Below are positions 19,505 through 36,707 of a stretch of 54,188 bases of DNA, piece by piece (positions within the stretch are counted from its first letter, which is position 1; the number at the start of each line of letters is the position of its first letter). Location of the stretch: IMG/VR virus record IMGVR_UViG_3300032770_000026, positions 1-54,188 of that record; one strand, given 5' to 3'. The position numbers and the translations under genes are program-made. The stretch is from a virus. The notes under the pieces are model-generated. The model made no database searches and was not told the DNA's origin. It saw only the letters and a list, made by a program, of their open reading frames with translations.

Positions 19505-20182
19505 ATGAAAAAGATATTTATATTAGGTTTTTTATTCGTGAGTCTTGGTTTAATGGCTCAATTGCCTGTATCCACAAAAGTAAAAACCCTTTCTCCGGCG
19601 TTGGTGCCTGGCGGGATTACGACTCTTAATTCATCAAAATATGATACTCTAAAAACTGGCGATACTTTATTTTATAAGGTATTGATTAATCATGATGAAA
19701 TTGGGTATCCTTATTTGTCTCTACTTTTAAAAAGAGTAGCTGGTGCTGATACCGCAACGGTAACCGCAACTTTTTGGCAATCTGTTGATGGGTCTACCAA
19801 TTGGCAGCAAGTTAAATACTTATCCAAAGTAACCACTTTTTTGTTTGATACGACGAAATTTGCAGGAAGTACAACTGGCACAAGTACATTATTGTTTGAT
19901 ACGACTAAATATTCAGCGGGAGTTTACCGACATGATTTTTATTCGGCAACTTTAACCGGAAAGGGAAGACAACTTTATTCAGCTACAGGAACTTCAGCAA
20001 ATACCGAAACAGCTTGGACGGTTTCTCTTACAAAAGCTATAATGAAAGGTGGAACCACTGTCAGTTTTTGGCGAAACAATGCAGCTTTTGAAAGTCAATA
20101 TTTAGGTATTCGTTTTATTTCAGCTGTAAGCTCAGGTTTTAAAGGAATTTATTACGGATCAGTAAGATATGATAATAAATAA
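19505..20182 (+). CDS. Protein with Sec signal peptide following capsid gene
   Basis: A 225-residue protein whose N-terminus MKKIFILGFLFVSLGLMAQ is a typical Bacteroidota signal peptide cleaved before or after Gln. The mature part is Thr/Ser-rich and beta-like, with repeated LLFDTTKYSAG / FLFDTTKFAGS units, and ends VRYDNK. Decoration-like proteins usually occupy this location, but those are cytoplasmic. Export to the periplasm or outer membrane before lysis is the direct reading; function is unknown. Confidence 0.7.
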   Translation: MKKIFILGFLFVSLGLMAQLPVSTKVKTLSPALVPGGITTLNSSKYDTLKTGDTLFYKVLINHDEIGYPYLSLLLKRVAGADTATVTATFWQSVDGSTNWQQVKYLSKVTTFLFDTTKFAGSTTGTSTLLFDTTKYSAGVYRHDFYSATLTGKGRQLYSATGTSANTETAWTVSLTKAIMKGGTTVSFWRNNAAFESQYLGIRFISAVSSGFKGIYYGSVRYDNK

Positions 20183-20185
20183 ACT

Positions 20186-20641
20186 ATGGCTAAGAAAGAA
20201 AAAACAAATGTAAGTGTTACGAACACTATTTTTAATGTAAGACCGATACACGTTGCACGTATAAAGGCTTATTTGGATGCTGGTTATGATAAAGTAATCA
20301 TTCATGGTGACGGTATGATGTTTTGCGGGAAAACCGGCCAAACATTTGACGGTAAAACAATGGAATTTGGTTCGGATCATCACAAAGAATTTAATTCCGG
20401 TGTAGCAGAAATCAACAAAAATGAGCTTATTGCAAGAGCTAAATTTAGGGCTATTTATGTCAAAGGCGGAGAATTACCTTCAACCCCTGAAGAAGTCATA
20501 CAAGAATTCTATGATAACCAAGCCCGTGAAATGCAAAGCGCTACCAAACCCGAACTTGCAACCAACTTTAAAAATGCCGTAACAGTTCCTGACCCTGTTC
20601 AGCCTAAAGTAATTAAGGCTTCTAAACAGGAAGAAGTTTAA
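20186..20641 (+). CDS. Hypothetical protein before tail sheath, 151 aa
   Basis: Starts MAKKEKTNVSVTNTIFNVRP three bases after the previous stop. Charged and soluble, with AYLDAGYDKVIIHGDGMMFC in the middle and a disordered Pro/Lys C-terminus. It may be a head or neck component by position. No domain is recognised. Confidence 0.65.
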   Translation: MAKKEKTNVSVTNTIFNVRPIHVARIKAYLDAGYDKVIIHGDGMMFCGKTGQTFDGKTMEFGSDHHKEFNSGVAEINKNELIARAKFRAIYVKGGELPSTPEEVIQEFYDNQAREMQSATKPELATNFKNAVTVPDPVQPKVIKASKQEEV

Positions 20642-20647
20642 CCAAAT

Positions 20648-20667
20648 GGCTGGTCCAACGGCCAGCC
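20648..20667 (+). terminator. Stem-loop before sheath gene
   Basis: GGCTGG ... CCAGCC, with an inner CC/GG pair, follows the previous stop by 6 bases and is followed by TTTAATATTT. It is a likely partial terminator or processing site between two virion genes. Confidence 0.5.
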
Positions 20668-20683
20668 TTTAATATTTAAAATA

Positions 20684-22243
20684 ATGGAACATATTATAAG
20701 TACAACCATTTCAAATACACCTTCGGGAATACCGGGGTCGTTTGATGGTGTTATGATGATGATTGTAAAAGGCGTTGCGACAACTACTGGTACAACGGCA
20801 CTTGTTTTGGATACGGCTTATCTGGGTAATAAACTTGATGATTTTGTAACCGGATTAGGGATAACACCTGATTATGATTACGTAAACAGTCTTTCGGTTT
20901 ATCAACAGGTAAGTGAATTCTATACTGAGGCAGGAGACGGGGCTTACTTGTGGTTAGTTGTAACAGCGACTACTACAAACTTTGCAACTTATTGCGCTAT
21001 AGCAACCGGAACAACTTTTATGAATCTTATCAGGGGCACTAATTTAACCGATCCTGATATGCGGGTTAAAATGTTAGGATTAGGATATAATCCGCCTCAA
21101 ACCCGGCAAAGTGCAGCTGATTTCCCTTCAGATGTTACTTCTACGATTCCTTTATTGCAGCTCACACTAGCGCAATTAGCCGAAGAAGGATACGCATTAT
21201 CTGCAATAATTGACGGTGAAAATATGTCTTCGACTGCCACAGCTTCGACGCTTCAAACAATGGCAAATAAGAAAGCCTCTTCGATTTCAATGTGTATTAC
21301 AGGGTCTAAGCCTAACGGGGTAGCTTCAATTGGTGCCGCTCTTGGGAGGTTTGCAAGAATTTCTTTAGGTCATGGATTCGGAGAAGTTGACGACGGCCCT
21401 ACATCGGTTCAAAAAGCTTATTGGACAAATGGGGTAGCCGTTCCGATTGTAGGTTCTACAATATCTCAGGGCACAGATTTAACAGCTGGACATTCATATA
21501 TGGTTGTTCTAGGACCTGTAACCTATAATTCAACTGTTTATTCAGTTGGTGAAATATTTACTGTAATCGTAGGAACTTTAGGATTTACCGGAACAGGAAC
21601 GACTGTTGTTGATTTAACAACAACCGGAACTGTAGTAGTAGGTCATACTTATATGGTGCTTTTTGGTCCTATAACTTACAATAGTGTTGTTTACGGAACC
21701 GGAACAACTTTCACAGCTGTAACAAATCATACAACATTTACCGGTGGAATAGTATTTGAATTCACCGCTCAAGATGTTTCTAAACTTTTCCCGGCTGACG
21801 TAAATACTCTCGGAACCAAACAGTATATGTTTTTACGGACTTGGTTTCAACAGTCTGGTCTATATTGGAATGACGGTGCAACTTGCGATTTATCTACGAC
21901 TCCACTTTCTACCCAGGAATTCAACAGGGTAGGTAACGCATTAAGTGCTGATTTGTTAGAATTTTTAATTACAAATCTAATGGGTAAAAACGTTCCTGTT
22001 GATACGAAGACCGGGCTTGTTGCGCGTTCTTTCACAGCTGCTAAAGAAGAAGATTTTAGCCGTACATACTTAGAGCCTTTGATTGTTCCCAAGGCACCGA
22101 ATACTGTCGGGGATATATCAGCTGGAAGTCTTTCACTCGTAGGCACTCCAAACGGAGCTAATACAGTTGACTGGACTTATACGCTTACGATTAACGGAAC
22201 CCCGATTACCGGGTCTGCTACTGGAACTGTAACCTTTGTTTAA
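20684..22243 (+). CDS. Contractile tail sheath protein (DUF2586-like) with inserted repeats
   Basis: 519 residues. The N-terminal half (LTLAQLAEEGYALSAIIDGE; IGAALGRFARISLGHGFGEV) and the C-terminus (QYMFLRTWFQQSGLYWNDGA; LSTQEFNRVGNALSADLLEF) match DUF2586-type sheaths. Between about residues 265 and 360 lie two tandem ~45-residue units (GHSYMVVLGPVTYNSTVY and GHTYMVLFGPITYNSVVY) that sheaths do not need; they probably form an exposed surface domain. The gene marks the phage as a myovirus. It is followed 11 bases later by the tube gene. Confidence 0.87.
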   Translation: MEHIISTTISNTPSGIPGSFDGVMMMIVKGVATTTGTTALVLDTAYLGNKLDDFVTGLGITPDYDYVNSLSVYQQVSEFYTEAGDGAYLWLVVTATTTNFATYCAIATGTTFMNLIRGTNLTDPDMRVKMLGLGYNPPQTRQSAADFPSDVTSTIPLLQLTLAQLAEEGYALSAIIDGENMSSTATASTLQTMANKKASSISMCITGSKPNGVASIGAALGRFARISLGHGFGEVDDGPTSVQKAYWTNGVAVPIVGSTISQGTDLTAGHSYMVVLGPVTYNSTVYSVGEIFTVIVGTLGFTGTGTTVVDLTTTGTVVVGHTYMVLFGPITYNSVVYGTGTTFTAVTNHTTFTGGIVFEFTAQDVSKLFPADVNTLGTKQYMFLRTWFQQSGLYWNDGATCDLSTTPLSTQEFNRVGNALSADLLEFLITNLMGKNVPVDTKTGLVARSFTAAKEEDFSRTYLEPLIVPKAPNTVGDISAGSLSLVGTPNGANTVDWTYTLTINGTPITGSATGTVTFV

Positions 22244-22254
22244 AATTTAAAGAT

Positions 22255-22680
22255 ATGAGTTTAAATCTAAATACATTAATTTATACTTCTTCAGATTATA
22301 AGATTGCGTTATCTTATAACGGAGTGACAGTTCCTTTAAATATCGTTGAGTCTTTTGATTATGGTGGAAAAAAGGAATCTGAGTATATTCACGCAGTGGG
22401 CACAGATGAACCTGTTGGCCTTAAAACGAACACCTCAACTTATCCTGGTAAACTCTCAATGGAAGCTGGCGAAGTTGAAATATTTCTAAAGGCTGCAGGA
22501 TTAGCTCTTATGACACAAATAACCAATGCCACGATTTCTGTTGTAACATTTGACGGAAATCTGGCAAAGATTTATAAAAGTGTCGTGTTTACTTCTCATG
22601 ATGGGTCTTTCAAGGCTAAAGACAAACGTTCTTTAATTACGCTTAGTTGGGAATCAATTGGACCGGTAGGAATTTTTTAG
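22255..22680 (+). CDS. Tail tube protein
   Basis: A 141-residue beta-rich protein directly after the sheath, containing IVESFDYGGKKESEYIHAVG, KLSMEAGEVEIFL and a C-terminal DKRSLITLSWESIGPVGIF, as in inner tube proteins of Bacteroidota myoviruses. Size and order support the call. Confidence 0.82.
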   Translation: MSLNLNTLIYTSSDYKIALSYNGVTVPLNIVESFDYGGKKESEYIHAVGTDEPVGLKTNTSTYPGKLSMEAGEVEIFLKAAGLALMTQITNATISVVTFDGNLAKIYKSVVFTSHDGSFKAKDKRSLITLSWESIGPVGIF

Positions 22681-22696
22681 ATAAATTATTTTTATT

Positions 22697-23317
22697 ATGA
22701 AGATTTGTGGCATATATAAAATTACATCGCCTATTAAAAAAATATATATAGGAAAATCAATTGATATTTTTCATAGATGGAAATTATACAATAATTTAAG
22801 ATGTAAATCACAAACCCATCTTTATAATTCATTAAAAAAATACGGAGCCAATAAACATAAATTTGAGATTATTTGCCAATGTGACAAATCAGAATTAAAT
22901 AATCTTGAAAAATATTATATAGCATTATTCCAGTGTTTTAATAATAAATATGGATTAAATCTAAAGTCTGGAGGCGAAGGAGGTAGTATTTGTTCAGATG
23001 AAACTAAGAAAAAACAGAGTGATGCTCAAAAAAGGATTGGCAATAAACCTCCAATTATATGGGGAGATGCAAAAGGTAAATTTAAAAAGGGACAAAAAGC
23101 ATGGAATAAAGGCAAAAAAATGAGTCACGAACAGTATGAAGCTTGCAAAAATACTATGTTTAAAAAGGGCTCTCATTTATCAGAAGAAATTAAACAAAAA
23201 ATGTCTGAATCTCAAAAGGGGAGAAAACATACTGAAGCGACAAAAATAAAAATGAGCGAATCAGCAAAAAATAGATGTAAGCAAAATAATGAAATATTTG
23301 ATTTAATTTTAAACTAA
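22697..23317 (+). CDS. GIY-YIG homing endonuclease with NUMOD3 repeats
   Basis: A 206-residue free-standing homing enzyme. The nuclease core has GIYKIT (residues 4-9), IYIGKSIDIFHRW with the catalytic Arg, and NLEKYYIALF with Glu. The C-terminal half has NUMOD3-type DNA-binding repeats (FKKGQKAWNKGKKMS, FKKGSHLSEEIKQKMSESQK, KGRKHTEATKIKMSESAK). It sits between the tube and the chaperone genes, ending one base before the latter. It is a selfish mobile gene inserted in the tail operon without disrupting a reading frame. Confidence 0.88.
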   Translation: MKICGIYKITSPIKKIYIGKSIDIFHRWKLYNNLRCKSQTHLYNSLKKYGANKHKFEIICQCDKSELNNLEKYYIALFQCFNNKYGLNLKSGGEGGSICSDETKKKQSDAQKRIGNKPPIIWGDAKGKFKKGQKAWNKGKKMSHEQYEACKNTMFKKGSHLSEEIKQKMSESQKGRKHTEATKIKMSESAKNRCKQNNEIFDLILN

Positions 23318-23701
23318 ATGTTAACATTCGAAAAGGAACTTTCTTGGGTTAGTTATGATGTAGACGGGGATAAAGTAGTCGAATCACCACGTACAAAAAT
23401 AGCTACTTTTTATGATCTTAATCGTACTGATAAGCGTCAGCATAAATTGCACTTTAAGATCATATCTATTTTTGAAGGTCTTGAAAAAGGCAAAGACGAA
23501 GCTGATTCGATTGGAATAAGTTCAGATGGATTATATGATATAACTGTGAAGGCTATTAATATTCTTTTGGTAACCAATGAAGTTTTTAATGAAGTTGATA
23601 AAAAAGAACTACTAAATGATTCGATAGCTTTGTTAGAGCTTGGGATGTGGTTATTTAAAGAAAAATTTACCCCCTTTTTTGCGATGTTGAGAATGAGTTA
23701 A
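23318..23701 (+). CDS. Tail assembly chaperone, short form (gpE-like)
   Basis: 127 residues ending MLRMS*. It lies between tube and tape measure, the standard site of the chaperone pair. Residues include LHFKIISIFEGLEKGKDEAD and LLELGMWLFKEKF. Near the end the frame crosses CCCCCTTTTTTG, where a -1 shift gives the long form. It helps the tape measure and tube assemble and is absent from the finished particle in related phages. Confidence 0.8.
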   Translation: MLTFEKELSWVSYDVDGDKVVESPRTKIATFYDLNRTDKRQHKLHFKIISIFEGLEKGKDEADSIGISSDGLYDITVKAINILLVTNEVFNEVDKKELLNDSIALLELGMWLFKEKFTPFFAMLRMS

Positions 23702-23922
23702 ATACCATAAATAAAAAGCCCGATGAGGCTCTAAAAAATTTAATAGCTCGTGACCCGGTTTTTTATCATCAGACCATGTTTCGGGCTTTTTTACACTATA
23801 CAACTGAGGATTTGGAAAACATGGGAATTGACGAATATATGAATTGCTTGGTAATGTTAAAAAATGTACTTGAGACAATCCATGCTCCTTTTATGGATCA
23901 TAATAATTTAACCAATGCCTAG
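23318..23922 (+). CDS. Tail assembly chaperone, -1 frameshift product (gpE+E'-like)
   Basis: The short form is followed, after re-reading T23680, by a second open frame starting TGC GAT GTT GAG. It continues NELNTINKKPDEALKNLI... to TAG at 23920-23922, adding about 80 residues. The extension has no start codon of its own at the right place and overlaps the tape-measure ATG by 8 bases. Programmed -1 frameshifting here is conserved in lambda, P2 and Mu-type phages, so this is well supported by context. Confidence 0.8.
23670..23680 (+). other. Ribosomal frameshift site C5T6
   Basis: CCCCCTTTTTTG with zero-frame codons ACC CCC TTT TTT GCG. A single-base backward slip on TTT TTT leads into the long chaperone frame. 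The last T before GCG is re-read. Confidence 0.65.
23714..23791 (+). other. 11-bp inverted repeat inside chaperone extension
   Basis: AAAAAGCCCGA (23714-23724) and TCGGGCTTTTT (23781-23791) are perfect complements separated by 56 bases. The 3' arm looks like a terminator ending in T6. It begins 33 bases after the slip site. It may tune frameshifting or attenuate transcription into the tape measure; neither is shown. Confidence 0.45.
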
Positions 23923-25525
23923 TTACGCATTTCAAATAGATACAACAGGCGATAGCGCTGAGAAAATAAAGCAAATCAAGGCAGCTATTGAACAAATGGG
24001 CGGGAAACTTAAGGATATTCCTGAACACGCAAATAAAATAAAAAATGCATTTGGAGGGCTTATTAGCCAATTTAAAGGATTAGCCGGTGCTTTGGGTGTT
24101 GGATTAGGAGCGTTTGCAGGTTTTAGTTTTATAAAGCAATCTAAAGAGGCATTTGATAAATTCGAGGAATCTGTTGTTAAAATAGAGACTGCGATTAAGT
24201 CTACAGGCGGAGCTGCGCAGTTATCTTTATCTCAATTAGGTGACGAAGCTAAGAAATTAAGTGGCGTTTCTCTATTTAGCCGGGCGTCTATTATGGATGC
24301 TCAATCTATGCTACTCACGTTTACTCAGATAAAAGGTACAGTTTTTAACGAGGCAATTCCTGCGATCATGGATTTTGCTACACGTTATAAAACTGATCCG
24401 GTTGAGGCTGCTTTACAAGTTGGCAAAGCTCTTAATGACCCTGAAAAAGGATTGCATCGTCTTTCAAGAATGGGCGTTGTATTTTCAGCACAACAGGAAG
24501 CGCAAATTAAAAAATTCATGGCCGTTAACGATGTAGCCAGCGCTCAAAGGGTAATGTTAAAGGAGCTAAACACTGAATTTGGCGGACTTGCCGAAGCGAT
24601 GACAAAAACTGATGAAGGAAAGTTAAAAATGGCCGCTAAAACAATGCAAGAATTTAAAATACAAGTTGGTGAACTTGTGTCTAAAATTTTAGTGATGCTA
24701 ATCCCTGCGTTTAATACAGTAGTTAAGCTTTTCAAAGAGTTTAAAGATTGGATAACAGGAGATAGCGAATCAGCATATATTTTTAAAGAAATAATAGTGG
24801 TTATCGGCGGGGCTCTTTTAGGTTATCTTGTAGTTGTCAATGCGATTGCTTTAGCTACTAAGATTTGGACAGCCTTTCAATGGCTTTTAAATATAGCTAT
24901 GTCAGCTAATCCTATTGGGATTGTTATTATTGCCGTTGTTGCTCTTATTGCTGCTATCGCTGCTTTGTGGGATAAATGCGAAGGATTTAGAAAGATAGTA
25001 GGAGGCGTATTTGCTGAAATTGCCAAGGTTATAATGGGAATTGTACATTATTTTGTCAATCTGGCAAAGATAATGTATGATGTGTTTACATTTAATTTTA
25101 AAGATGCATGGGCTCAAGGTAAAAAATTCATCTCAGATTTTAAAAATGACTTTCTTCAGGGTTGGGGTGAAGCATGGGATAAAGGATCAAAAAAAGCCCA
25201 AGAATCTAAATTTAAATTTGGTGGATTAATCGGATTAGGAGGTAAAAAAGATCAGGAAAAATCAGCCGAAGAAAGAATGAAAATGGGAATGGGCGGAGGT
25301 CCAGGAGGGTTAGCCCAGGGAGCCATAAACACAGCCGCTTTAGGTGGTGCATCTGGTGGTCTCGGAGAGGCTAAAATTATTAAGATAGACTTTCATGCTC
25401 CACTTATGAAGATAGACGTCCCCGGAGGCAATGGGATGGATATTGTTTCAAAAGCTCCTTTAGCAATGGAATCACTTATTAGGATAGCTAATAATCTTAG
25501 TCAATCACAAGGATCAACTATGTAA
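23915..25525 (+). CDS. Tail tape measure protein
   Basis: 536 residues, short for the family and thus implying a short tail. The N-terminus is helical (KIKQIKAAIEQMGGKLKDIP); an Ala/Gly-rich segment GLAGALGVGLGAFAGFSF follows. The middle has strong hydrophobic segments near residues 290-350 (IVVIGGALLGYLVVVNAIAL; ANPIGIVIIAVVALIAAIAA). The C-terminus is Gly/Lys-rich. Tape measures of Gram-negative phages carry such segments for membrane entry. Its ATG overlaps the chaperone extension. Confidence 0.85.
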   Translation: MPSYAFQIDTTGDSAEKIKQIKAAIEQMGGKLKDIPEHANKIKNAFGGLISQFKGLAGALGVGLGAFAGFSFIKQSKEAFDKFEESVVKIETAIKSTGGAAQLSLSQLGDEAKKLSGVSLFSRASIMDAQSMLLTFTQIKGTVFNEAIPAIMDFATRYKTDPVEAALQVGKALNDPEKGLHRLSRMGVVFSAQQEAQIKKFMAVNDVASAQRVMLKELNTEFGGLAEAMTKTDEGKLKMAAKTMQEFKIQVGELVSKILVMLIPAFNTVVKLFKEFKDWITGDSESAYIFKEIIVVIGGALLGYLVVVNAIALATKIWTAFQWLLNIAMSANPIGIVIIAVVALIAAIAALWDKCEGFRKIVGGVFAEIAKVIMGIVHYFVNLAKIMYDVFTFNFKDAWAQGKKFISDFKNDFLQGWGEAWDKGSKKAQESKFKFGGLIGLGGKKDQEKSAEERMKMGMGGGPGGLAQGAINTAALGGASGGLGEAKIIKIDFHAPLMKIDVPGGNGMDIVSKAPLAMESLIRIANNLSQSQGSTM

Positions 25526-25526
25526 T

Positions 25527-25967
25527 ATGAGACTACAAGATCCTACAAATATTCCCTGGCAAGTTTTTATAAATGGAGTTGAACTTCCTTCAGATGTGCT
25601 TGTGAGCTTAAACGGAGAAAAGATAATTGCTGAAAGTAAGATTCTGGATGGGGTATCAGTATTTGAACGTATTTGTAGAAAGCCATTTGAACTTAATTTT
25701 GACTTTAATCTCAGAGCATTAAATATTTTGAATCAATATGTTTTTCCAAATGAAGACGCTTATAATATTATTACTGATGTTTGGACGCCCGATCAGGTAG
25801 TTAATTGTCAGAATACTTTTTTAAATAAAATAGGGATTAACGACATAGTAATAAAAAATATAACATTTGTACCGATACGGGGAAATACAACACTTCCTTG
25901 TACACTCAAATGTCTTGAAAATTATAACAGTAATAACCAAAAAAATACTTTAATAATACCATTATGA
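25527..25967 (+). CDS. Baseplate-associated protein (DUF6046-like), 146 aa
   Basis: Begins MRLQDPTNIPWQVFINGVEL one base after the tape measure. Mixed alpha/beta, with ILDGVSVFERICRKPFELNF. By order it should be an early tail-tip or baseplate component, as in Bacteroidota myophages. The DUF name is an impression, not a search result. Confidence 0.62.
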   Translation: MRLQDPTNIPWQVFINGVELPSDVLVSLNGEKIIAESKILDGVSVFERICRKPFELNFDFNLRALNILNQYVFPNEDAYNIITDVWTPDQVVNCQNTFLNKIGINDIVIKNITFVPIRGNTTLPCTLKCLENYNSNNQKNTLIIPL

Positions 25968-26188
25968 ATGCAAAATTAAAGGCAACAGAAATTGTTTGCG
26001 ATTTTTTAGAATCATTTAAAAGTTTAACTTTTTTTGATATTAATAAACATGAGATTGAATGTGAAATAGTTGCAAAACATAGAGCATATTATTTTATAAA
26101 ACAAAATATACTACCAACAATAGGTAGTGAGGCTGATCTTAAATTTTGGAAAAATGTTCTTGAAGAAATCAATAAAATAAATTTGTAA
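25964..26188 (+). CDS. Hypothetical tail-region protein, 74 aa
   Basis: MNAKLKATEIVCDFLESFKS and then HEIECEIVAKHRAYYFIKQN. It overlaps the genes on both sides by 4 bases and 1 base, so it is co-translated with the baseplate genes. No domain recognised; possibly a small inserted gene. Confidence 0.65.
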   Translation: MNAKLKATEIVCDFLESFKSLTFFDINKHEIECEIVAKHRAYYFIKQNILPTIGSEADLKFWKNVLEEINKINL

Positions 26189-27429
26189 TGTATTTCAACG
26201 CACATTGTAAAGTCATAATAAATGATCAAACACTTGAGACTGTTGTAAGTGTTGAGACTCATAACGATTCTAATCATATAGGCTCGTATTGTGACATTGT
26301 GCTGCCTTTGAACTCAAGAATAGAATACAAAAGCGAAACAAACCAAGCGCCAAAACCAGACAATCAAGATCCTCAGATAGATTATAGTCAGGTAAATAAC
26401 GGATATATAACGGCTCCTACTCGATACCTTTTTAATACCGGAGATCATATTATCGTCAAAGCTAAATACGATGGCTATGAACAGGTAGACGGGGCGGAGT
26501 CCGATGGCTATTTACCGATTTTTGACGGGTTTATTTATGATTTCTACGAAAGTACGCCGGTTAAAATCAAGTGTTTAGACTATATATACTGGTTTAACAT
26601 AGGTATTTATGGAAGTAAAATCATAACAGTTATAAAGAATCTAAAACCTGGAAAGAAACCACCAAAAAAACCTAAAACGAGTACTGGCCAGGGGGTATCT
26701 TTTAAAAGTACAACATTTAAAGAAATCCTACAGGACATTTGCGACACAGTGAGTTATAATATAGCCGTCTGGAATGACGAAAATGATACAGATTACCCGG
26801 AAGTTTCTTTAAGCGAGCCTATTTTTGATATGAATCTTGTTAATATATCTTTTATTCAAATGTCCCCGGCTGCCGTTCTTGAATGGTTCAAAAAAGAGCT
26901 CGGTTTGAATATTACTTTAATGGGAACTAAGCTATATGCTAATTTAGCAAGTAATACAACCGGAACGGTAATCTTACAAACAGATAAAAACATTATTGCT
27001 TCAGGGCTTCAAACGACAAATTTAAAACATTTCAAAACAAAAAAATCAAAAGGTTCAAATTCTATATTCTTAAGAATCAAGGTAAAGGCTTATTTTTTGC
27101 GGGATGACGGGACAAAAGATAGTATAGAGGTAGGTGATCCGAACGGCCAACTAAGGGAGGTATTTTTCTATAACGTCAAGAGAGATGAAAAACTATATAC
27201 TCAAATGGCAAACGAGGCCATTCAAAAATATCATCAGGACCGTTATACCGGTGAAGTCGAAACATATTTGTACCCTTTTTGCGATCTTTTCTGGAAGGTA
27301 CAATATTTTGATGTCCGGTATCCTGAAAGAAATGGATCGTACGTTGTTACGATGTTGCAACAATCATTAAATGAACACGGGTTTCACAAAAAATTAAAGC
27401 TGGCATTTTTAGACGATCAAAATGGATAA
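26188..27429 (+). CDS. Baseplate hub protein (gpD-like)
   Basis: A 413-residue protein after the tape measure block. It has YCDIVLPLNSRIEYKSE, then IFDGFIYDFYESTPVKIKCL in the style of hub beta-domains, VLEWFKKELGLNITLMGTKL, and a C-terminal DVRYPERNGSYVVTML. This organisation is seen in late-control/gpD-type hubs. It would cap the tube and hold the spike encoded next. Confidence 0.68.
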   Translation: MYFNAHCKVIINDQTLETVVSVETHNDSNHIGSYCDIVLPLNSRIEYKSETNQAPKPDNQDPQIDYSQVNNGYITAPTRYLFNTGDHIIVKAKYDGYEQVDGAESDGYLPIFDGFIYDFYESTPVKIKCLDYIYWFNIGIYGSKIITVIKNLKPGKKPPKKPKTSTGQGVSFKSTTFKEILQDICDTVSYNIAVWNDENDTDYPEVSLSEPIFDMNLVNISFIQMSPAAVLEWFKKELGLNITLMGTKLYANLASNTTGTVILQTDKNIIASGLQTTNLKHFKTKKSKGSNSIFLRIKVKAYFLRDDGTKDSIEVGDPNGQLREVFFYNVKRDEKLYTQMANEAIQKYHQDRYTGEVETYLYPFCDLFWKVQYFDVRYPERNGSYVVTMLQQSLNEHGFHKKLKLAFLDDQNG

Positions 27430-28018: not shown

Positions 28019-28323
28019 TGGGAGACTTGCAATATAATCCACAAACGAGAGATCTTGTTATCACAAAAGGGGACTTTACGATGACTAATAACCCAAGTGT
28101 GCAGAATGGAGCTATAATCCGTGATGCTCATTGTTTTAGCCTTAGATTTCCGGTTTATGGCATCGGATTACAACGGGTTATTAATGCTCCTTTACAGGTT
28201 ATTAATTATGAAATGAACCGTTGGGTAACCCAGGTAAAAAGTGATGGTGCAAAAAAAGCAACTTTTACAGCTGAGATTGTAAATAAAACGGCTATTGTGA
28301 ATAACACAGTTTCGTATATATGA
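28018..28323 (+). CDS. Baseplate wedge protein (gpW/gp25-like)
   Basis: 101 residues: DLQYNPQTRDLVITKGDFTM then AIIRDAHCFSLRFPVYGIGL and VINYEMNRWVTQVKSDGAKK. The size, N-terminal D...L....G.F motif and order (spike, W, J) fit the small wedge protein of contractile tails. Confidence 0.68.
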   Translation: MGDLQYNPQTRDLVITKGDFTMTNNPSVQNGAIIRDAHCFSLRFPVYGIGLQRVINAPLQVINYEMNRWVTQVKSDGAKKATFTAEIVNKTAIVNNTVSYI

Positions 28324-28973: not shown

Positions 28974-28983
28974 AAACAAAGAT

Positions 28984-29358
28984 ATGTCAAGAATAAATAT
29001 AAATAATGGAGATTCAGGGTTAACGGTTAGGAATGCCTTAAACGCTATGACTTCAGAGTTATACGGAAGCCTTTCGAATGTTCCTATTAAATTGGTAGGC
29101 CAAACCGGGGCGTTTACTCAGGCAATATTAGCCGATACTTGGGTCGAAAGAATAAGTATAACGCCTGCATCTGGTACGCCGGATATTAAAATCGGAACTT
29201 CACTACACGGTACAGAGCTTTGCCCTGTGACTTCTATAGATAATTATTTGCCCGTGCTTATACAGCAATATTTTACCGATGCCAGTACCTTATATTTTGA
29301 GACTACGGGCGGAACCGTAAATGTAAGAATTGACAATTTAAATCCATACGCACTATGA
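28984..29358 (+). CDS. Small virion beta-domain protein, 124 aa
   Basis: After a short N-terminal arm, the protein is one beta unit: GQTGAFTQAILADTWVERIS ... DIKIGTSLHGTEL ... QQYFTDASTLYFETTGGTVN. The same unit occurs twice inside the connector protein at 9555-10625. It lies between the LysM protein and baseplate J. It may be a decoration or adhesion module reused on two parts of the particle. Confidence 0.68.
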   Translation: MSRININNGDSGLTVRNALNAMTSELYGSLSNVPIKLVGQTGAFTQAILADTWVERISITPASGTPDIKIGTSLHGTELCPVTSIDNYLPVLIQQYFTDASTLYFETTGGTVNVRIDNLNPYAL

Positions 29359-30128
29359 GCGCTTATTCTACGATAATTTCCTTTATACAATCAGCAATGC
29401 CTGAGCTTAATAGCACAAGCGTTGCCGGGATTGTTAATAAAATGGCCGAGGCCAACGGGCAAGTAATAGATAATACTTTAGCGGAGTTAACCAATACAGA
29501 GACTATTATTACTCAAACTATAACCGATAAAAACGACGGTCATTCGGGATCGTATATTGCCAATGCTTTAGCTTACCAAGAAGGTGATAACCTTTCTATT
29601 GATGCGAACGGTAATTATTACTATGCTGTTATTGATACAACAAAGCAAATCATAAAGCAAGCTGCATTTAAAGAAGTAATAAGTGGGTCAAGTGCTTCAC
29701 TTGTGCTAAAAGTGGCTTATATTGATCCTAATACCGGACTTTTAGCAGCCTTACCGACAAATAAAAAAACCGCCTTTGATAGTTACTTCAGATTGTTTGA
29801 AAAACCAGGTCTACCGGTAACAAAAATTTCTAATGATCCGAATACATTAGCTTTTGATGCTCTTATAACTTATGATCCCACTTATGATTATACTATTCTT
29901 CAAACAAATGTTGCTGCTGCGTTAATTACTTTCCGGGATAACTTCACTTTTAATGGGACATTCAGGAATTACTATTTGGAAAACTATTTAGTTACAAACG
30001 TGCCTGGAGTTAACGCAGTTTATCTATCAAATACGACTATTGATGCGGTACCTTTTTCAGGGGATACTGTGCTTTCAGCTGGGTACTTTAATTTTGGAAC
30101 TGTAAACGTAACTTATGAATCAATTTAA
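29355..30128 (+). CDS. Baseplate J-like wedge protein
   Basis: 257 residues starting MSAYSTIISFIQSAMPELNS with an N-terminal helical part, a middle (FDALITYDPTYDYTILQTNV) and a C-terminal FSGDTVLSAGYFNFGTVNVT. The final domain resembles J-like wedge proteins, where the C-terminus ends near AGYF. It overlaps the next gene by 14 bases. Order supports the call; divergence is high. Confidence 0.6.
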   Translation: MSAYSTIISFIQSAMPELNSTSVAGIVNKMAEANGQVIDNTLAELTNTETIITQTITDKNDGHSGSYIANALAYQEGDNLSIDANGNYYYAVIDTTKQIIKQAAFKEVISGSSASLVLKVAYIDPNTGLLAALPTNKKTAFDSYFRLFEKPGLPVTKISNDPNTLAFDALITYDPTYDYTILQTNVAAALITFRDNFTFNGTFRNYYLENYLVTNVPGVNAVYLSNTTIDAVPFSGDTVLSAGYFNFGTVNVTYESI

Positions 30129-30627
30129 GCAAATATCATATCCCAAAATGCTATATGAATGTTTGGGTGCTTACCACTCGGTAAACTCAGCCGGAGCGTT
30201 ATCTTATTTATACAAGTTCTGTCTGTGTTGTGTCTATGTGCTTCAAACCCCGTTTAATAATTTTGACTTATGGAGAATTAAAAAACTTCTTATCGCTAAT
30301 TGTCGCTGGGAAATAGGCCAATTAACAAATGTCCTTAACATGCTTTACGATCCTTCACAGAAACGAATAACCATAGGGCAAAACTCAATAGTTGGATGCT
30401 TTGTTTTTAACATAGACGAAGGCGAAAGCTCTACTTTTGTTATGAATATAGACGAAGATGAAAGTACGGTCTTTGTTCCAAACATCGACGAGGCAATAAA
30501 CAGTGCAATGGTTACATTTTATGTACCTGCTTCAATCTATACTAATACTCCGACTTTAACGTCTTTAATCGCTGATATTGAACAAATAAGATGGAAGGGT
30601 ATTTTATACCAAATTGTGTCACTCTAA
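30115..30627 (+). CDS. Baseplate/tail protein I-like with NIDE repeats
   Basis: A 170-residue protein following the J-like gene, the usual place of gpI. The first half is aromatic and Cys-rich (YLYKFCLCCVYVLQTPFNNF; LIANCRWEIGQL). The second has three copies of a short unit (VFNIDEGESST, VMNIDEDESTV, VPNIDEAINSA), a local triplication. Position is the main evidence for function. Confidence 0.58.
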   Translation: MNQFKQISYPKMLYECLGAYHSVNSAGALSYLYKFCLCCVYVLQTPFNNFDLWRIKKLLIANCRWEIGQLTNVLNMLYDPSQKRITIGQNSIVGCFVFNIDEGESSTFVMNIDEDESTVFVPNIDEAINSAMVTFYVPASIYTNTPTLTSLIADIEQIRWKGILYQIVSL

Positions 30628-30637
30628 AACTTAAAAT

Positions 30638-31633
30638 ATGTCTAATAAAATTCAATTTCCAAACAATAGATTAACGCCTCCGGCTTTAGGCAAACCGGTA
30701 TTTGCGACAGATATTCAAAATAATACTGAAAATTTGCTTGAGGCAATGAATATCCTTTTAGGATTACCAGCTTCAGGAGGTACGGCTTTTGCAATACTAT
30801 CAGGTCTTACTTATAATGAAAGCGAAGGGACCTATGACCCTGGTTATGTTTATATGAATGGAGTTATATACTACAGTGCTGATATAATATATGATCCATG
30901 TTACCTTGTACCAAATGTAACTGATACTGAATCTAAATTGCATAATCCGGATGGAAATTCTTATAATACTTATCGTATCTATTATGCGATTTCAAGCTCG
31001 TCCCCATCTGGGGGAATGCCTCAATTTACAGGTTCTATGGATCAATATCGGTTAAGTATAGTTTTAGCTAAATCACAAGCAATCGCAACTGCGGCTGCGG
31101 ATGCAACTTCAAAAGCTAATACGGCGCAATCTAATGCTGAAGAATATACTGATAATGCAATTTCAGGATTAGGAACAGCGGCAACTAAAGATGTAGGATT
31201 AGCTGCAAACAACGTTTTGCAAAGCGATGGAATGAGTAGGGATAAATTTACAATGACAAGTGATCAGTATGATAAGTTGGTTACTGTTGAAGATGATTTT
31301 GTATGTCGGAGAGCAACAGGGATGAAACAACCAAAAATTATTGAGATTACAAATTATAATATGAATACTGGTGGAGCTGTATCTGAAATTTCTATTGCAC
31401 ATGGATTGACTTATTCAAAAATAATAGGATGCCGAGTTATTATCGAAAATGACGAAGAGACATTAAAAAATGTAATTTCAGGGACTAATGGCAATGGAAG
31501 TTCGACAGCCTGTTATTATGAAGTAAATGGAACTAATATTCGCATAATTAATGAAATTGGTAGTACATATTGCAGTTCCTCTTATGATGGCACAGGACAT
31601 AGAGGATGGATTATTATAGATAATATAGCTTAA
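30638..31633 (+). CDS. Tail fibre-like protein
   Basis: 331 residues. The N-terminus (NNRLTPPALGKPVFATDIQN) likely attaches to the baseplate. A coiled, Ala-rich middle contains GLGTAATKDVGLAANNVLQS, a motif common in fibre shafts. The C-terminus (YSKIIGCRVIIENDEETLKN ... GHRGWIIIDNIA) is beta-rich. Its stop overlaps the end of the convergent minus-strand gene by 4 bases. It is the last plus-strand gene of the baseplate block. Confidence 0.72.
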   Translation: MSNKIQFPNNRLTPPALGKPVFATDIQNNTENLLEAMNILLGLPASGGTAFAILSGLTYNESEGTYDPGYVYMNGVIYYSADIIYDPCYLVPNVTDTESKLHNPDGNSYNTYRIYYAISSSSPSGGMPQFTGSMDQYRLSIVLAKSQAIATAAADATSKANTAQSNAEEYTDNAISGLGTAATKDVGLAANNVLQSDGMSRDKFTMTSDQYDKLVTVEDDFVCRRATGMKQPKIIEITNYNMNTGGAVSEISIAHGLTYSKIIGCRVIIENDEETLKNVISGTNGNGSSTACYYEVNGTNIRIINEIGSTYCSSSYDGTGHRGWIIIDNIA

Positions 31634-32565
31634 TTTGAAAAATGATTAGCTTCATTTTCAAAATAGTTATTTGAATAACCATTAACTAAATCATTTATAG
31701 CGTAAGTTGAAAGAAAATTTAGGTTTATATTGAGATGATTTAATATCTTGTTATTTGAATTTGGAGTAAATAAATCAAATTCAGTATATTGTAAAGCATG
31801 AATAAATTCATGTTTTAAATTAGCCTTAAAATCGGAATTGGAATATTTTAAAGGTTTAAAATAAGGATCATTATTTTTGAAAGCTGTTATTGTATTTCCC
31901 AATGATTGGCCAACTGTTAAGCCTTCAGTAATTGGTTTATGAGATGAAATAAACACTATTGATCCAGTTAATAATGTTTGTTTAATATTGAATGAATATC
32001 CTTTTGAAAAACTTAAATAAGCTATATATCCTATTATTGCAGGATCAATTTTAATTGATATTTTATGAAAACTAGCTTGAAAATTAAAACAATAAAGTGT
32101 TAAATATAAATTAGATGTAATTGGCTTATTATTATATCCATTGATTATAATTGATTGACCTATTGAATGAATTAATCTTGAAGTTAGCAAAAAATCATTT
32201 TGTTTTACCGAATATTTGGCCGTATAGTTAATAGCACCTCCAATAGCGCCCTTATATAATCCCTTAATCATTGCATGAGTGAATTTTTCTCCTTTTTTAT
32301 GATGAAATCCCGAACCAATTCCGCTAACTAAACTCGAAGAAATGACATTATAAGCAGCATATTTTAAGTCGTTTTGTGCCTGACAAATAACTGGAATCAT
32401 AAAGAATAAAACCAATATTTTTAGATTCTTGTTAATAAACTTTTCAACAAGCTTAGATGCATGCTTTGTTAAGGTAGTCTTATTTTCCTTGCAGAACTTT
32501 TTATAAAGTTTGTGATTTTCAGGCGAAAGCCTTACATTAAATTTTGGTAATTTGTTCTTGTACAT
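31630..32565 (-). CDS. RHH-like N-terminus fused to exported HExxH protein, minus strand
   Basis: 311 residues from the ATG at 32565 (the frame is open to 32592). Residues 1-~48 (KFNVRLSPENHKLYKKFCKE ... LTKHASKLVEKFINKN) look like a ribbon-helix-helix or similar DNA-binding domain. They run directly into a signal-peptide-like segment (ILVLFFMIPVICQAQ). The remainder has Gly-rich hydrophobic stretches and LKHEFIHALQY, an HExxH zinc-protease motif. Cytoplasmic and exported features in one chain are contradictory. A separate start near the hydrophobic segment (TTG or Met) is possible. Confidence 0.6.
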   Translation of the reverse strand: MYKNKLPKFNVRLSPENHKLYKKFCKENKTTLTKHASKLVEKFINKNLKILVLFFMIPVICQAQNDLKYAAYNVISSSLVSGIGSGFHHKKGEKFTHAMIKGLYKGAIGGAINYTAKYSVKQNDFLLTSRLIHSIGQSIIINGYNNKPITSNLYLTLYCFNFQASFHKISIKIDPAIIGYIAYLSFSKGYSFNIKQTLLTGSIVFISSHKPITEGLTVGQSLGNTITAFKNNDPYFKPLKYSNSDFKANLKHEFIHALQYTEFDLFTPNSNNKILNHLNINLNFLSTYAINDLVNGYSNNYFENEANHFSN

Positions 32566-32575
32566 GACAGTAAAA

Positions 32576-32761
32576 TTAAAATGAAATAGCAAACTGTGAT
32601 CCTATTTTCATGAGTTTTGCGCCTGTTTGCGCTGAAAAATAGGTTAAAATCTTTTCTTCCGACCAACTATTTAATATAGAATCAACTACTTTATCAAGTA
32701 TTGATTGTTCTGTGCTTTGTGGCCTGTAACACATTTCTATTATTTCTCTTTTGCTGTACAT
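32576..32761 (-). CDS. Small protein, 61 aa, minus strand
   Basis: MYSKREIIEMCYRPQSTEQS, then ILDKVVDSILNSWSEEKILT and a more hydrophobic end. It lies 10 bases before the RHH-HExxH gene. Its promoter region has TTG-N20-TAACTTTC on the minus strand, overlapped by palindrome O2. It may be the first gene of a two-gene regulated module. No family recognised. Confidence 0.58.
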   Translation of the reverse strand: MYSKREIIEMCYRPQSTEQSILDKVVDSILNSWSEEKILTYFSAQTGAKLMKIGSQFAISF

Positions 32762-32792
32762 ATCGTGTTGTTTTTCTTTACTATATTATACG

Positions 32793-32808
32793 AAAGTTAC
32801 GTAACTTT
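32793..32808. promoter_or_regulatory. Operator-like palindrome O2
   Basis: AAAGTTACGTAACTTT, a perfect 16-bp palindrome. Read on the minus strand its right half plus C makes TAACTTTC, a near -7 box with TTG 20 bases upstream. It lies 32 bases before the minus-strand ATG at 32761. Same core as O1 and O3. Confidence 0.68.
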
Positions 32809-32865
32809 GTTGTAATAAACAACATGTTTTAGAGCATAAGTGTTTTTATATTAAAGGAATCCCCT

Positions 32866-33096
32866 CATAAAGTTACGTAACTTATACAATTTATTCCTAA
32901 ACTAGAGATATTGATAATCAATATGTTAAGTGTTTTTGATGTATAAAAATATAACAAAAAATATAGTTTTTATAACTAATTGATTTACTGTTAGATTATC
33001 TTCTGGAGAGGGCTATATTTAAAATCAACCTTGGCATTTGGGCGTAAAACTTATTCTGAGACCGTGTAGAGAATTTATAGACCTTGAAAGGCTTGT
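32866..33096 (-). repeat. Copy B of ~230-bp inverted intergenic repeat
   Basis: The reverse complement of this stretch aligns with 13733-13966. The section nearest O3 is nearly identical over about 80 bases; the outer part is more diverged and the DnaA-box-like sites are not conserved. It also contains ATATTGATTATCAATAT, a perfect 17-base dyad. Downstream, the ATG-like start aligns with the PBECR gene start but stops after five codons, so a gene was probably lost here. Confidence 0.68.
32870..32883. promoter_or_regulatory. Operator-like palindrome O3
   Basis: AAGTTACGTAACTT, identical to O1, at the end of repeat copy B and 61 bases from O2. Two sites this close suggest cooperative binding by a dimeric regulator. 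Confidence 0.65.
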
Positions 33097-33133
33097 TTAA
33101 TCAAAGGCATAGGGTTATAAAATTAGACATTTT

Positions 33134-33181
33134 TGACATACAAATGTATGCAATGAATTCCTAGTGAGAACAGTAATTTTG
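33134..33181 (+). promoter_or_regulatory. Late promoter P3 (palindrome plus TAATTTTG)
   Basis: GACATACAAATGTATGCAAT at 33135-33154 followed after exactly 19 bases by TAATTTTG (33174-33181). Transcription would start near 33188, nine bases before the ATG at 33197. It drives the signal-peptide genes, the beta-helix protein and the lysis cluster. Confidence 0.75.
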
Positions 33182-33196
33182 TTCAAATATTTTACT

Positions 33197-34900
33197 ATGA
33201 AAAAGATAGTCTTTATTATCTTAACTAGCTTAACGTTAAATTGTTATTCTCAAAATCCTATCCCAATTTCTCAACCTTATAACTTTCTCCAATATGTTCA
33301 GGTTCAAAAATATATTTATGTTAAGGATAGTGTTGAGATTAATAATAAATGGTGGTCGCCTTATTGGTGGAATACCTTTAACAATAAAGTAGGGTTTAAA
33401 GATACCACTTCAACAGGCAAAATAGACACAAAAGCGCAACGCGCGACTGCATTAAATAGCTATCAAAAAAAATCAGATACAGCAACTTATGACGCTTCAA
33501 AATATTATGTTCAGCAATTATTGAATTCTTATATTAAATGGGTTGATACGTTGTCAACTGGAAAGATAGCTACAAAAAAATATGTTGCTGATCATTCAGG
33601 CGGTTCTTCAGATAGTTCTAAATTAATAACTAAATATGATTTTACTCAAGGCGTTTATGGTGAGGTTCATTTGTTGGATGAAAATAATATAAATGAATTT
33701 GCTATACAAAATGATGAAATTTTATTGCAGGCTAAATCTATTTTAGGGGCAAGTGCAGGAATCTATGCCGATACCTTTGGAAATGCATATTTAACCGGGT
33801 CAAATCATACAGGAACAAAGACGACAACTTATAAAGTTGGGCAAAATGGATTAGAGGCAACGGCTAATTATTATGCAAGAAATATTTCAAATCCAGGATG
33901 GTTAGTTGATAAAAATGCTTTAGATAGTACAGTTGCAGCTAATTCCGGCGGAAGTTTTGGTGATAGTATTTTAAAATTCGATGCTATTAAAAAGACATTC
34001 GTGCCTTATTCGAGTAAGCAAAATCAATTAAGCTTTTATAATGCAAATACATGGCCTGACAAAACAGATGATACGCTTAAATTAAATGGAATATATTGCC
34101 CTACAGGTTTGCATTTTAGAAATGGGGGTAGAATATGGGATTTTACACTTCAAGGAATGTATGGATACCCGGAATTCAACATGTTTGAAAACAATAATAT
34201 ATTAGCCCTTGGCTTTAATCCGAATAACGGGAATTATCTTTTTAACAACGTAACCCCTGATTCAGTTTTTGGAATGACATTTAATCAGCAAGATTCCATA
34301 CGATTTCAAGCGACTTCATTTTTTACAAAAATGGGAGATATAACTAAAAATAATTATATCAATGTTGATTATAAAGGAAGGCTAACTCAAGTGATAGGTG
34401 GCGTTACAAAAACTGTGTTATCAACGTCAGGGGACTTAACATTAGCGGGTGATTTAAAATATAAAGTATCTCATGGAGATGCAGTAATTTCAGGTGCTTC
34501 TTATGTACCTTCATTAACTGTAAATGTCCCTTTGAAATTAGTACCATCAATGACAGTAAAAGAATCTGATAGTATTACAATAGCAGGTGATACAGTAACA
34601 ATAGCTGCAACCAGAGGAGGTGATTATAAATTCAGAATTTATGGAAATATATCATCAGTATCAGGAAATGATTTTGTAATTAATGAAAGAAAAAATTCAG
34701 TAGTAATAGATGTAAATGATTATTTTGAATGTTCTACTACAGGCGCTACAAATTTTACTCCAATTGCTTATGAATGGTATACACATGGACTGGTAGCAGG
34801 GGATAAAATATCATGGTGGATTACAAATACAACAAACTCAGATGATCCAACAATACGTAGTTTTAAGGTCATTGTAGAAAAAGTACCGGATAAAATTTAA
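33197..34900 (+). CDS. Large fibre-like protein with signal peptide
   Basis: 567 residues from ATG at 33197; the frame opens at a GTG (33164) that lies upstream of the predicted transcript start. The N-terminus MKKIVFIILTSLTLNCYSQ is a signal peptide. The body is Ser/Thr/Asn/Gly-rich and beta-like, with fibre-type linkers (STGKIDTKAQRATALNSYQK; TGKIATKKYVADHSGGSSDS) and a C-terminal jelly-roll-like region (VVIDVNDYFECSTTGATNFT). Fibre-like sequence with an export signal is unexpected for a phage particle protein made in the cytoplasm. Confidence 0.7.
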   Translation: MKKIVFIILTSLTLNCYSQNPIPISQPYNFLQYVQVQKYIYVKDSVEINNKWWSPYWWNTFNNKVGFKDTTSTGKIDTKAQRATALNSYQKKSDTATYDASKYYVQQLLNSYIKWVDTLSTGKIATKKYVADHSGGSSDSSKLITKYDFTQGVYGEVHLLDENNINEFAIQNDEILLQAKSILGASAGIYADTFGNAYLTGSNHTGTKTTTYKVGQNGLEATANYYARNISNPGWLVDKNALDSTVAANSGGSFGDSILKFDAIKKTFVPYSSKQNQLSFYNANTWPDKTDDTLKLNGIYCPTGLHFRNGGRIWDFTLQGMYGYPEFNMFENNNILALGFNPNNGNYLFNNVTPDSVFGMTFNQQDSIRFQATSFFTKMGDITKNNYINVDYKGRLTQVIGGVTKTVLSTSGDLTLAGDLKYKVSHGDAVISGASYVPSLTVNVPLKLVPSMTVKESDSITIAGDTVTIAATRGGDYKFRIYGNISSVSGNDFVINERKNSVVIDVNDYFECSTTGATNFTPIAYEWYTHGLVAGDKISWWITNTTNSDDPTIRSFKVIVEKVPDKI

Positions 34901-34911
34901 ACTTATATATC

Positions 34912-35382
34912 ATGAAAAAGATTTTTATTTTACTAATATTTAGCTTATCAATATTGAGCTTGAAAGCTCAAACCGTAATATACCCGCCAAATACGGCTTT
35001 CGGGACGTTTGATTCGATTAAAGTCCCTGTTACCGATACTGTTTATTCACTCTCTAAGATAGGAGATATTTCGGGTTATTATAGTGTTTGGGAATTTGAC
35101 ATGAGTCGGCTTGATAGTTCGGTGAGCGTAAATCCGGGAGGCGGAAGTCGAATAATAAGGAATTCGCCGAGATTATATTCTTTCAATCCAATTATAGCCG
35201 ATTCGCTTCCTTATACTTTACCAAGGCTTAAATGGAAAACAACCACAAATGGAGTAACGCAAAATACAAAAGCTTTGCCTATTATTATTCATTTTGATTA
35301 CGAATATGCGGCAATCAAAGTAAAACGTCTAGGATGTACAGCTGGTAAATATTTATTATTCAGAGTTAATTTTCACAGATGA
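34912..35382 (+). CDS. Secreted hypothetical protein, 156 aa
   Basis: The signal peptide MKKIFILLIFSLSILSLKAQ is of Bacteroidota type. The mature part is beta-rich (SVWEFDMSRLDSSVSVNPGG; YAAIKVKRLGCTAGKYLLFR). It overlaps the next gene by ATGA. No domain recognised; co-transcribed with fibre-like genes. Confidence 0.68.
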   Translation: MKKIFILLIFSLSILSLKAQTVIYPPNTAFGTFDSIKVPVTDTVYSLSKIGDISGYYSVWEFDMSRLDSSVSVNPGGGSRIIRNSPRLYSFNPIIADSLPYTLPRLKWKTTTNGVTQNTKALPIIIHFDYEYAAIKVKRLGCTAGKYLLFRVNFHR

Positions 35383-36707
35383 GATTTAAATTACTTATAT
35401 TATTCCTCCTATTCCCCCTTTCCCTCTACTCCCAGGAAACCCGGATAACTCCCTGGGGCATAAAAGATAATTCTTTGGGTAATATGGAAGAAATACGAGA
35501 TAATTCGTTGGGGATGGAACAAACAGAAATTCCAACTTCAGTTAAAAATAAATTTTTATTCATTGGATATTATTCTCATATTTCAAATGGCAAGATGCCA
35601 AATATATTAGGTACAGATTATTTAACTGTTGCGGGAAGTGCAGGGAGCGAAACTTATCAATGTCCTAATAATGCAACATATATTACTGCTGATTCAGATA
35701 AACTTTGGTTTAATCCTACCTTACAAACTGTAACTACTGCCAATCTTATAGGATATGATTTTTTAAGAACAATCGTAAAATATGATGATGATTCACCCTA
35801 TACAATAAGATGGATTGGTATTTTAAAGGCTACCTCTACGTTTACACAATCAGAATTAAATAATCTTTTCAGATATTTTAGGCTTTCCGTATGGTGGAAT
35901 AATTCATTAAATGCCTATGGTAGAGTTAAAGAGAATAGGGGGATAGGCAAAAATTCATGGCCTCCTTATGAAACAGAATCTATTGCTTTATTTGCGCGAA
36001 TGGCAGCCGCAGGAGAACCAGCAACATCAGCAAGGAAAACAATTATTAATACTGCAATTGCTGCTTTAAAAACTGACGGCATTTGGGCAAAATTAGATTT
36101 TTTACACGTAGAAGCTGCACACGGTAATGCATCAGCCAGGTTAAATTGGATAGGAGATGTTTATAATTTAACTGATGGAGTTGCGCCTACATTCACAATT
36201 GATCAGGGATTTGCAGGTAATGGCTCAAGTAAATATTTAAGAACAGGATTTAATCCTGGGATAGCAGGTATTAAATACTCTCGCAATAGCGCAACATTAG
36301 GATGTTATTCCAGAACCTCCGGGGCGGAGACTGGCATATTTATGGGAGCCTCTACTGTTTGCGAGTTTTATGTCAATTATGGAAGTGGTGTATTTTATTT
36401 TTTTGTGAACGGAACTGAACTTAGTACAACCGGATCAACTGGTGCGGGTTTATTTACTGTAGTCAGAGATGGTGCAACTACAGAAAAAGCATATATCGGC
36501 AAAACAAAAACAGACAAAACAAATAGTTCTGTACTTCCTGATCCTGTTGAACTTTATATTTTATGTTTTAATGCAGGCACACCTAATCAGTTTAGTAATA
36601 AACAAATTGCTATGGATTTTGGAGGGAGTGCATTAACACCAACAGAACAGGGACTTTTATATGATATTATGGTAACTGGATATTTAACTTCAATTGGCGC
36701 ACAATGA
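35379..36707 (+). CDS. Secreted protein with concanavalin-like C-terminus
   Basis: 442 residues. The signal peptide is MRFKLLILFLLFPLSLYSQE. A short repeated unit follows (GIKDNSLGN, EIRDNSLGM). A helical/aromatic middle (FRYFRLSVWWNNSLNAYGRV) precedes a beta C-terminal half (FAGNGSSKYLRTGFNPGIAG ... FYFFVNGTELSTTG ... VELYILCFNAG) resembling LamG/concanavalin-type domains of fibre and adhesin proteins. Probable carbohydrate or surface binding; export signal again unusual. It overlaps the beta-helix gene by ATGA. Confidence 0.65.
   Translation: MRFKLLILFLLFPLSLYSQETRITPWGIKDNSLGNMEEIRDNSLGMEQTEIPTSVKNKFLFIGYYSHISNGKMPNILGTDYLTVAGSAGSETYQCPNNATYITADSDKLWFNPTLQTVTTANLIGYDFLRTIVKYDDDSPYTIRWIGILKATSTFTQSELNNLFRYFRLSVWWNNSLNAYGRVKENRGIGKNSWPPYETESIALFARMAAAGEPATSARKTIINTAIAALKTDGIWAKLDFLHVEAAHGNASARLNWIGDVYNLTDGVAPTFTIDQGFAGNGSSKYLRTGFNPGIAGIKYSRNSATLGCYSRTSGAETGIFMGASTVCEFYVNYGSGVFYFFVNGTELSTTGSTGAGLFTVVRDGATTEKAYIGKTKTDKTNSSVLPDPVELYILCFNAGTPNQFSNKQIAMDFGGSALTPTEQGLLYDIMVTGYLTSIGAQ

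Follow-up and report, generated by a model that had tools for sequence, protein, structure and literature searches.

Signal peptides exposing glutamine on fibre and capsid-adjacent proteins of a Bacteroidota phage suggest that part of the virion is made outside the cytoplasm

Tailed-phage assembly, that of the fibres included, is in the textbook view wholly cytoplasmic. The viral DNA studied here (the window: the whole 54,188-nucleotide stretch of IMG/VR record IMGVR_UViG_3300032770_000026) raises the question of why four genes that lie among its capsid and fibre genes should begin with signal peptides, and where their products go. The window virus is a contractile-tailed dsDNA phage of Bacteroidota. 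Its gene order starts with terminase (7861) and portal (10626), continues through a fusion of protease, scaffold and capsid protein (16535) to the sheath (20684), the tube (22255) and the tape measure (23915), and closes with baseplate genes that reach 30627 (head and tail genes are named from position and weak matches). A host search among genome contigs returned one short contig, binned under Methylococcaceae and probably wrongly so; hence, no host was assigned.

Q-rule signal peptides in the virion module

A glutamine right after the cleavage site is the "Q-rule" of Bacteroidetes, where it marks substrates of signal peptidase I (PMC5837995). An earlier note on this DNA held that the genes at 19505, 33197, 34912 and 35379 begin with Sec signal peptides ending in A or S plus Q, and all four were confirmed. 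Cleavage is predicted after LMA in 19505, CYS in 33197, LKA in 34912 and LYS in 35379, each time exposing Gln. The predicted signal peptides are MKKIFILGFLFVSLGLMA (19505, followed by QLP), MKKIVFIILTSLTLNCYS (33197, followed by QNP), MKKIFILLIFSLSILSLKA (34912, followed by QTV) and MRFKLLILFLLFPLSLYS (35379, followed by QET). For 33197, the longest open reading frame starts from a GTG at 33164, and it is the ATG at 33197 that gives the signal peptide. These calls rest on a rule of our own (a basic n-region, an uncharged hydrophobic stretch, a small residue at -1, an uncharged one at -3 and Gln at +1), on the published Q-rule and on conservation. Our rule was passed by 4 of the 86 called genes in the window, compared with a mean of 0.07 passing genes (maximum 1) in 60 order-3 Markov shuffles of the window, none of 139 internal Met positions used as a control, and none of 134 genes in two Alphaproteobacteria phages.

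A conserved export signal behind the capsid gene

The post-capsid gene (19505..20182, + strand; signal peptide 19505-19558) encodes a putatively exported protein of 225 aa, mature from Gln19. Used as a query, this protein returned no relatives from the phage collection or the viral contigs; relatives were instead reached via capsid, sheath, baseplate and terminase proteins, and the post-capsid set was defined by place, as those genes that separate the capsid gene from the conserved gene following it. Because the set was picked by position, it carries no bias towards signal peptides. A Q-rule signal was found in 12/12 distinct relatives having a gene there (the window, L002, L003/L006, L005, L013, L016, L017, L019/L020, L022-L026, L030, L038/L040 and L042), and Gln stands at +1 in all of them, as it does in all four window proteins. 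Divergence across the set takes capsid identity to about 31% and identity of the mature part to 13%. The gene is absent in three lineages (L021, L027/L028 and L029), and is therefore dispensable in some. The small protein encoded at 34912 was considered as a further family member, and is not a detectable relative.

This conservation bears on the possibility that there is no real export, with the proteins staying in the cytoplasm or at the inner membrane face, either intact or processed by a protease of the phage, and fibres assembling in the ordinary way. Known fibre assembly is cytoplasmic, a homologous lyase domain occurs in a signal-less virion protein (see below), and prohead-protease cleavage has been suggested for signal-like starts of capsid proteins (PMC10367356). 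Nonetheless, we regard this explanation as quite improbable, given that the +1 Gln of all post-capsid proteins, a set chosen by position, matches signal peptidase I substrates of Bacteroidetes (PMC5837995), and that a periplasmic glycosylation sequon is enriched. Export of the fibres and the post-capsid protein is, as a reading of sequence, well supported, and agrees with the earlier note, which had supposed it: Q-rule signals persist among strongly diverged relatives, and the proteins that bear them are enriched for the periplasmic sequon.

An AlphaFold model of 19505 (mean pLDDT 74) predicts a beta-sandwich. Foldseek comparison of this model with the PDB gave no match at E <= 0.001. Matches to solved structures were to common jelly-rolls only (Z up to 9.7), and other fold matches were to unnamed small phage proteins; these outcomes do not prove a new fold. 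There was no sequence match to a solved decoration protein. The protein resembles head-decoration proteins in adjoining the capsid gene and in being a small, predicted beta protein, and it would probably bind the head.

A GC-rich hairpin (CCCCGACTCCGGTCGGGG) at 19463-19480 separates the capsid stop codon from the post-capsid gene, and possibly sets the expression level of the latter. The central insert of 19505-20182 repeats an LFDTTK motif and contains an LYSATGT stretch; it resembles the L002 version, which is otherwise very different, indicating a mosaic.

The fibre module

Behind the baseplate, the module comprises a gene of 162-174 aa, an adaptor (285-331 aa) that lacks a signal peptide and a fibre of 293-1009 aa (some shortened by contig ends) that has one. 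The fibre is usually followed by a small signal-peptide protein, and sometimes by one more, adhesin-like, that likewise carries a signal. In the window, these are represented by a proximal fibre or adaptor (331 aa; 30638..31633, + strand), a putatively exported distal tail fibre (567 aa; 33197..34900, + strand; signal peptide 33197-33250), a small, fast-evolving protein with an export signal (156 aa; 34912..35382, + strand; signal peptide 34912-34968) and a fibre or adhesin protein with the same kind of signal (442 aa; 35379..36707, + strand; signal peptide 35379-35432). A pectinesterase-like beta-helix protein without a signal peptide follows (36704..38401, + strand; Pfam Pectinesterase, E 2e-5, under the gathering cut-off), and serves as a contrast gene.

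The distal fibre carries a signal in 7/7 lineages with a readable fibre region (L009 among them), and the proximal adaptor, always in the same place, carries one in none of the lineages read. Surveying relatives for conserved signal peptides, as the earlier note had suggested, thus revealed them at both the distal fibre and post-capsid positions. The mature N-terminus of 33197, Q-x-I-x-x-x-Q-x-Y-x-F, is common to the fibres of six other lineages, with the remainder variable; most fibres continue after the signal with Q-T-I-I-[ST]-Q-P-Y-x-F-x-K-Y-I-T-V-K-D-S or near variants. A position behind the baseplate and, as judged from the sequences, an attachment end that is fixed and a distal end that varies make up the usual layout of a tail fibre. 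In sequence comparisons, 33197 gave a weak PHROG tail fiber match (E 0.0018; its AlphaFold model, pLDDT 31, was unusable), and the relative L041 matches both fibres and spikes from the tails of other phages (E 5e-5 to 0.1). Protein 35379 matches phrog_18498 (E 8e-22), and its C-terminal domain (about residues 170-441) is widespread in phages (101 phage records). In L035/L036, the fibre is followed by a protein that combines a signal peptide and a Laminin_G_3 domain.

Virion proteins with signal peptides in cultured phages

Ten proteins of the Cellulophaga phages phi10:1 (gp091-094), phi18:3 (gp085-087) and phi19:1 (gp101-103; accessions KC821618, KC821620 and KC821607, respectively) are recorded as virion structural by MS/MS, and 10/10 have Q-rule signals. 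Homologues of these proteins in phi19:3, phi46:3 and Ingeline have such signals too. The MS/MS records are silent on whether the signal peptide was removed, and detection through co-purification with envelope fragments is possible. Signal peptides go unmentioned in the Cellulophaga gene tables and in one flavophage paper (PMC8776804). The three isolates are like the window in having consecutive distal fibre genes, each with a Q-rule signal, a fixed N-terminal module and a swapped distal domain, but differ in that no sequence relationship to the window fibres was seen and sequons are not enriched. For example, phi10:1 gp093 and phi18:3 gp086 share 83% identity over residues 1-118 and are unrelated beyond, and the initial 42 residues of gp094 are found again, at 88-93% identity, in phi13:2, phi18:3 and Nekkels. 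Such sharing of N-terminal modules with swapped distal parts indicates that the signal is part of the attachment module. A homologous pectate-lyase domain of phi17:2 lies on a structural protein with a different N-terminus and no signal peptide; hence, the domain itself does not need export. Signal-peptide fibre genes were found in none of 11b, phi40:1, phi14:2, phi18:1, phi17:1, lotta8-1, elemoA and immuto (several scanned in part). A general rule that all Bacteroidota phages export their fibres was accordingly rejected, as most isolates scanned were without such genes.

Signal-peptide fibres are therefore members of the virion in other Bacteroidota phages, according to the MS/MS records, and are likely to be so in the window's phage. 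Taken with the export tags in the window, the presence of such tagged proteins in particles of cultured phages makes it probable that the particle is partly built beyond the cytoplasm. Of the three roles that the earlier note had proposed (superinfection blocking, capture of particles to aggregates and decoration of released virions), the last fits best, on account of these ten proteins.

Alternatively, the proteins could be exported without ever joining the virion, and merely be encoded among virion genes while acting in or outside the host envelope (in superinfection exclusion, receptor masking, or as a diffusible depolymerase or adhesin). Their export signals are conserved, and exported phage proteins that modify the host are known. 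Lambda Lom and Bor and T5 Llp are exported host outer-membrane proteins or lipoproteins, and lom lies among virion genes; they resemble the window's proteins in being exported and encoded by tailed phages, but are neither fibres nor virion parts. Phages of Porphyromonas gingivalis ("Nixviridae") have five functionally uncharacterised Q-rule genes, for which a part in modifying the host outer membrane has been proposed (PMC10367356). As host Sec and signal peptidase I substrates do, these phage-encoded signal peptides are predicted to expose Gln on cleavage, which is the likeness to the window; the window differs in its conserved fibre and post-capsid genes and in the virion MS/MS evidence from other isolates. 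We consider a role apart from the virion unlikely, in view of the fibre-type architecture, in which the mature N-terminus stays fixed while distal parts are exchanged, the MS/MS detection in virions of three isolates, and the lack of any surface-anchoring or type 9 secretion (T9SS) signal in Pfam and NCBIfam scans of the proteins.

Probable destination of the exported proteins

The earlier note had also envisaged display on the host surface, or release to the medium, before lysis. Scans with Pfam and NCBIfam found no match in these proteins to the T9SS C-terminal sorting domain (PF18962, TIGR04183), and a lipobox Cys at +1 is absent, the cleavage motif being A/S followed by Q in all four. With neither a T9SS nor a lipoprotein signal, surface display before lysis is unsupported. 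A T9SS domain search of the whole record was uninformative, since no control genome came above the cut-off. The simplest destination is the periplasm, where the proteins would wait until lysis.

O-glycosylation sequons in exported proteins

Bacteroidota O-glycosylate proteins at D-[ST]-[AILVMT], and only noncytoplasmic ones (PMC12871550). In 32 signal-peptide proteins of the window's clade, we counted 126 such sequons against 36.4 expected from the proteins' own composition (3.5-fold, z 14.9, although homologues are not independent and z values overstate the evidence), while other proteins on the same contigs had 1.26 times the expected number. By family, there were 40 against 7.6 expected in post-capsid proteins and 67 against 20.7 in fibres. 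In the window itself, sequons numbered 5 against 0.9 expected in 19505, 11 against 2.5 in 33197 and 3 against 0.5 in 34912, with none in 35379 despite its signal peptide. One alignment column holds D-[ST]-[LVIF] in 12/12 post-capsid proteins, with Ser and Thr interchanging. These counts suggest that exported proteins of the window's clade are probably O-glycosylated in the periplasm.

The enrichment might instead stem from the beta-strand and turn composition of fibres, in which case export would be real and glycosylation would not. This would affect one step only, and is compatible with the main explanation. In its favour, signal-peptide fibres of the Cellulophaga phages have only 0.37 times the expected sequons (7 against 18.9; non-signal structural proteins there, 0.64 times), 35379 has none, and the homologous proteins are non-independent samples. 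However, fibre-region proteins of the same phage that lack a signal are not enriched (none in 30638; 3 against 3.0 expected in 36704), control motifs are at or below expectation (D[ST] plus another residue, 0.9 times; N[ST], 0.74 times; reversed motif, 0.83 times), and Ser and Thr swap at the invariant sequon column. We view a purely compositional origin as a serious possibility, if somewhat doubtful. Given the lack of enrichment in Cellulophaga fibres and in 35379, glycosylation would at most be a trait of the window's clade, and there of some proteins only.

A proposed two-compartment route of assembly

If export and virion membership both hold, assembly is divided between two compartments. 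Building on the conserved signal peptides, the conserved N-terminal module with its variable distal part and the sequon enrichment, we think it fairly probable that the fibres, together with a protein associated with the capsid, undergo export, cleavage and maturation in the periplasm, and at lysis join particles assembled in the cytoplasm. In the steps that we infer, the capsid, sheath, baseplate and proximal fibre adaptor would be made and assembled in the cytoplasm, and the products of 33197, 34912, 35379 and 19505 would be exported by Sec and cut by signal peptidase I before Gln, which would then presumably cyclise to pyroglutamate. In the window's clade, the exported proteins would probably be O-glycosylated in the periplasm by the host's general system. 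On lysis, periplasmic proteins would meet the particles and bind: the conserved mature N-terminus would fasten fibres to the baseplate or adaptor, and the post-capsid protein would probably attach to the head. The fuller version, for some tailed phages of Bacteroidota, in which fibres and capsid-associated protein bear pyroglutamate and host O-glycans and are added at lysis only, such that the virion wears the glycans of its last host, has in our estimation a slightly less than even chance of being right.

If this is true, the receptor-binding end of the particle is built and modified outside the cytoplasm, unlike in the accepted view of tailed-virus assembly. Possible benefits include less sticking inside the cell, better folding, and host glycans that hide the particle or alter binding. 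It would also explain why fibre genes in some Bacteroidota phages look like those of secreted proteins, and would be a caution for annotation pipelines in which genes with signal peptides are classed as host-like.

The filamentous phage M13 offers a partial parallel, in that its coat proteins gp3 and gp8 are exported by Sec and their signal peptides cleaved before they join the particle. Virion proteins thus pass Sec before particle entry in M13 as proposed here, but M13 is assembled at the membrane during extrusion, whereas the head and tail of the window's phage are presumably assembled in the cytoplasm. No literature linking Q-rule signals to virion fibres was found in a search that most subscription papers lay outside. 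A survey of Bacteroides phage DGRs describes phage DGR proteins without signal peptides, other Bacteroides phage papers mention signal peptides in their methods only, and a rumen phage paper gives counts only.

Other features of the virion module

The protease-scaffold-major capsid protein fusion (16535..19456, + strand), the reference gene of the head module, is a single 973 aa gene combining a protease, a scaffold-like Lys/Glu-rich stretch and the capsid protein. It reached IMG/VR relatives at 60-74% identity, and its N-terminal part weakly matched Roseobacter and Synechococcus phage genes labelled "major capsid protein". The initial ~100 residues are absent from the fusion in L003, L005 and L006. 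GIY-YIG-type endonuclease-like genes are inserted in the virion module of the window (22697-23317) and of L010 (5938-6687), at sites that differ between these two relatives.

A fifth gene of the signal-peptide kind, absent from the earlier note, lies convergently at 31630..32592 (- strand), and encodes a signal-peptide-like segment and an HExxH motif (HEFIH). In the window, an RHH-like N-terminus is joined in frame ahead of the signal-like segment, and there is no usual start codon at the signal. Its relative at L007:864-1664 opens with a clean Q-rule signal peptide (MKTLTLILALVISVNMSA, followed by QND).

Among the Cellulophaga phages, the same signal-peptide N-terminal module is joined to unrelated distal domains at 44100-46433 of KC821618 and 34544-36901 of KC821620 (L065 and L072), which belong to two families. 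A module common to two families, as compared at the sequence level, suggests that fibre cassettes have been exchanged on hosts that these phages share.
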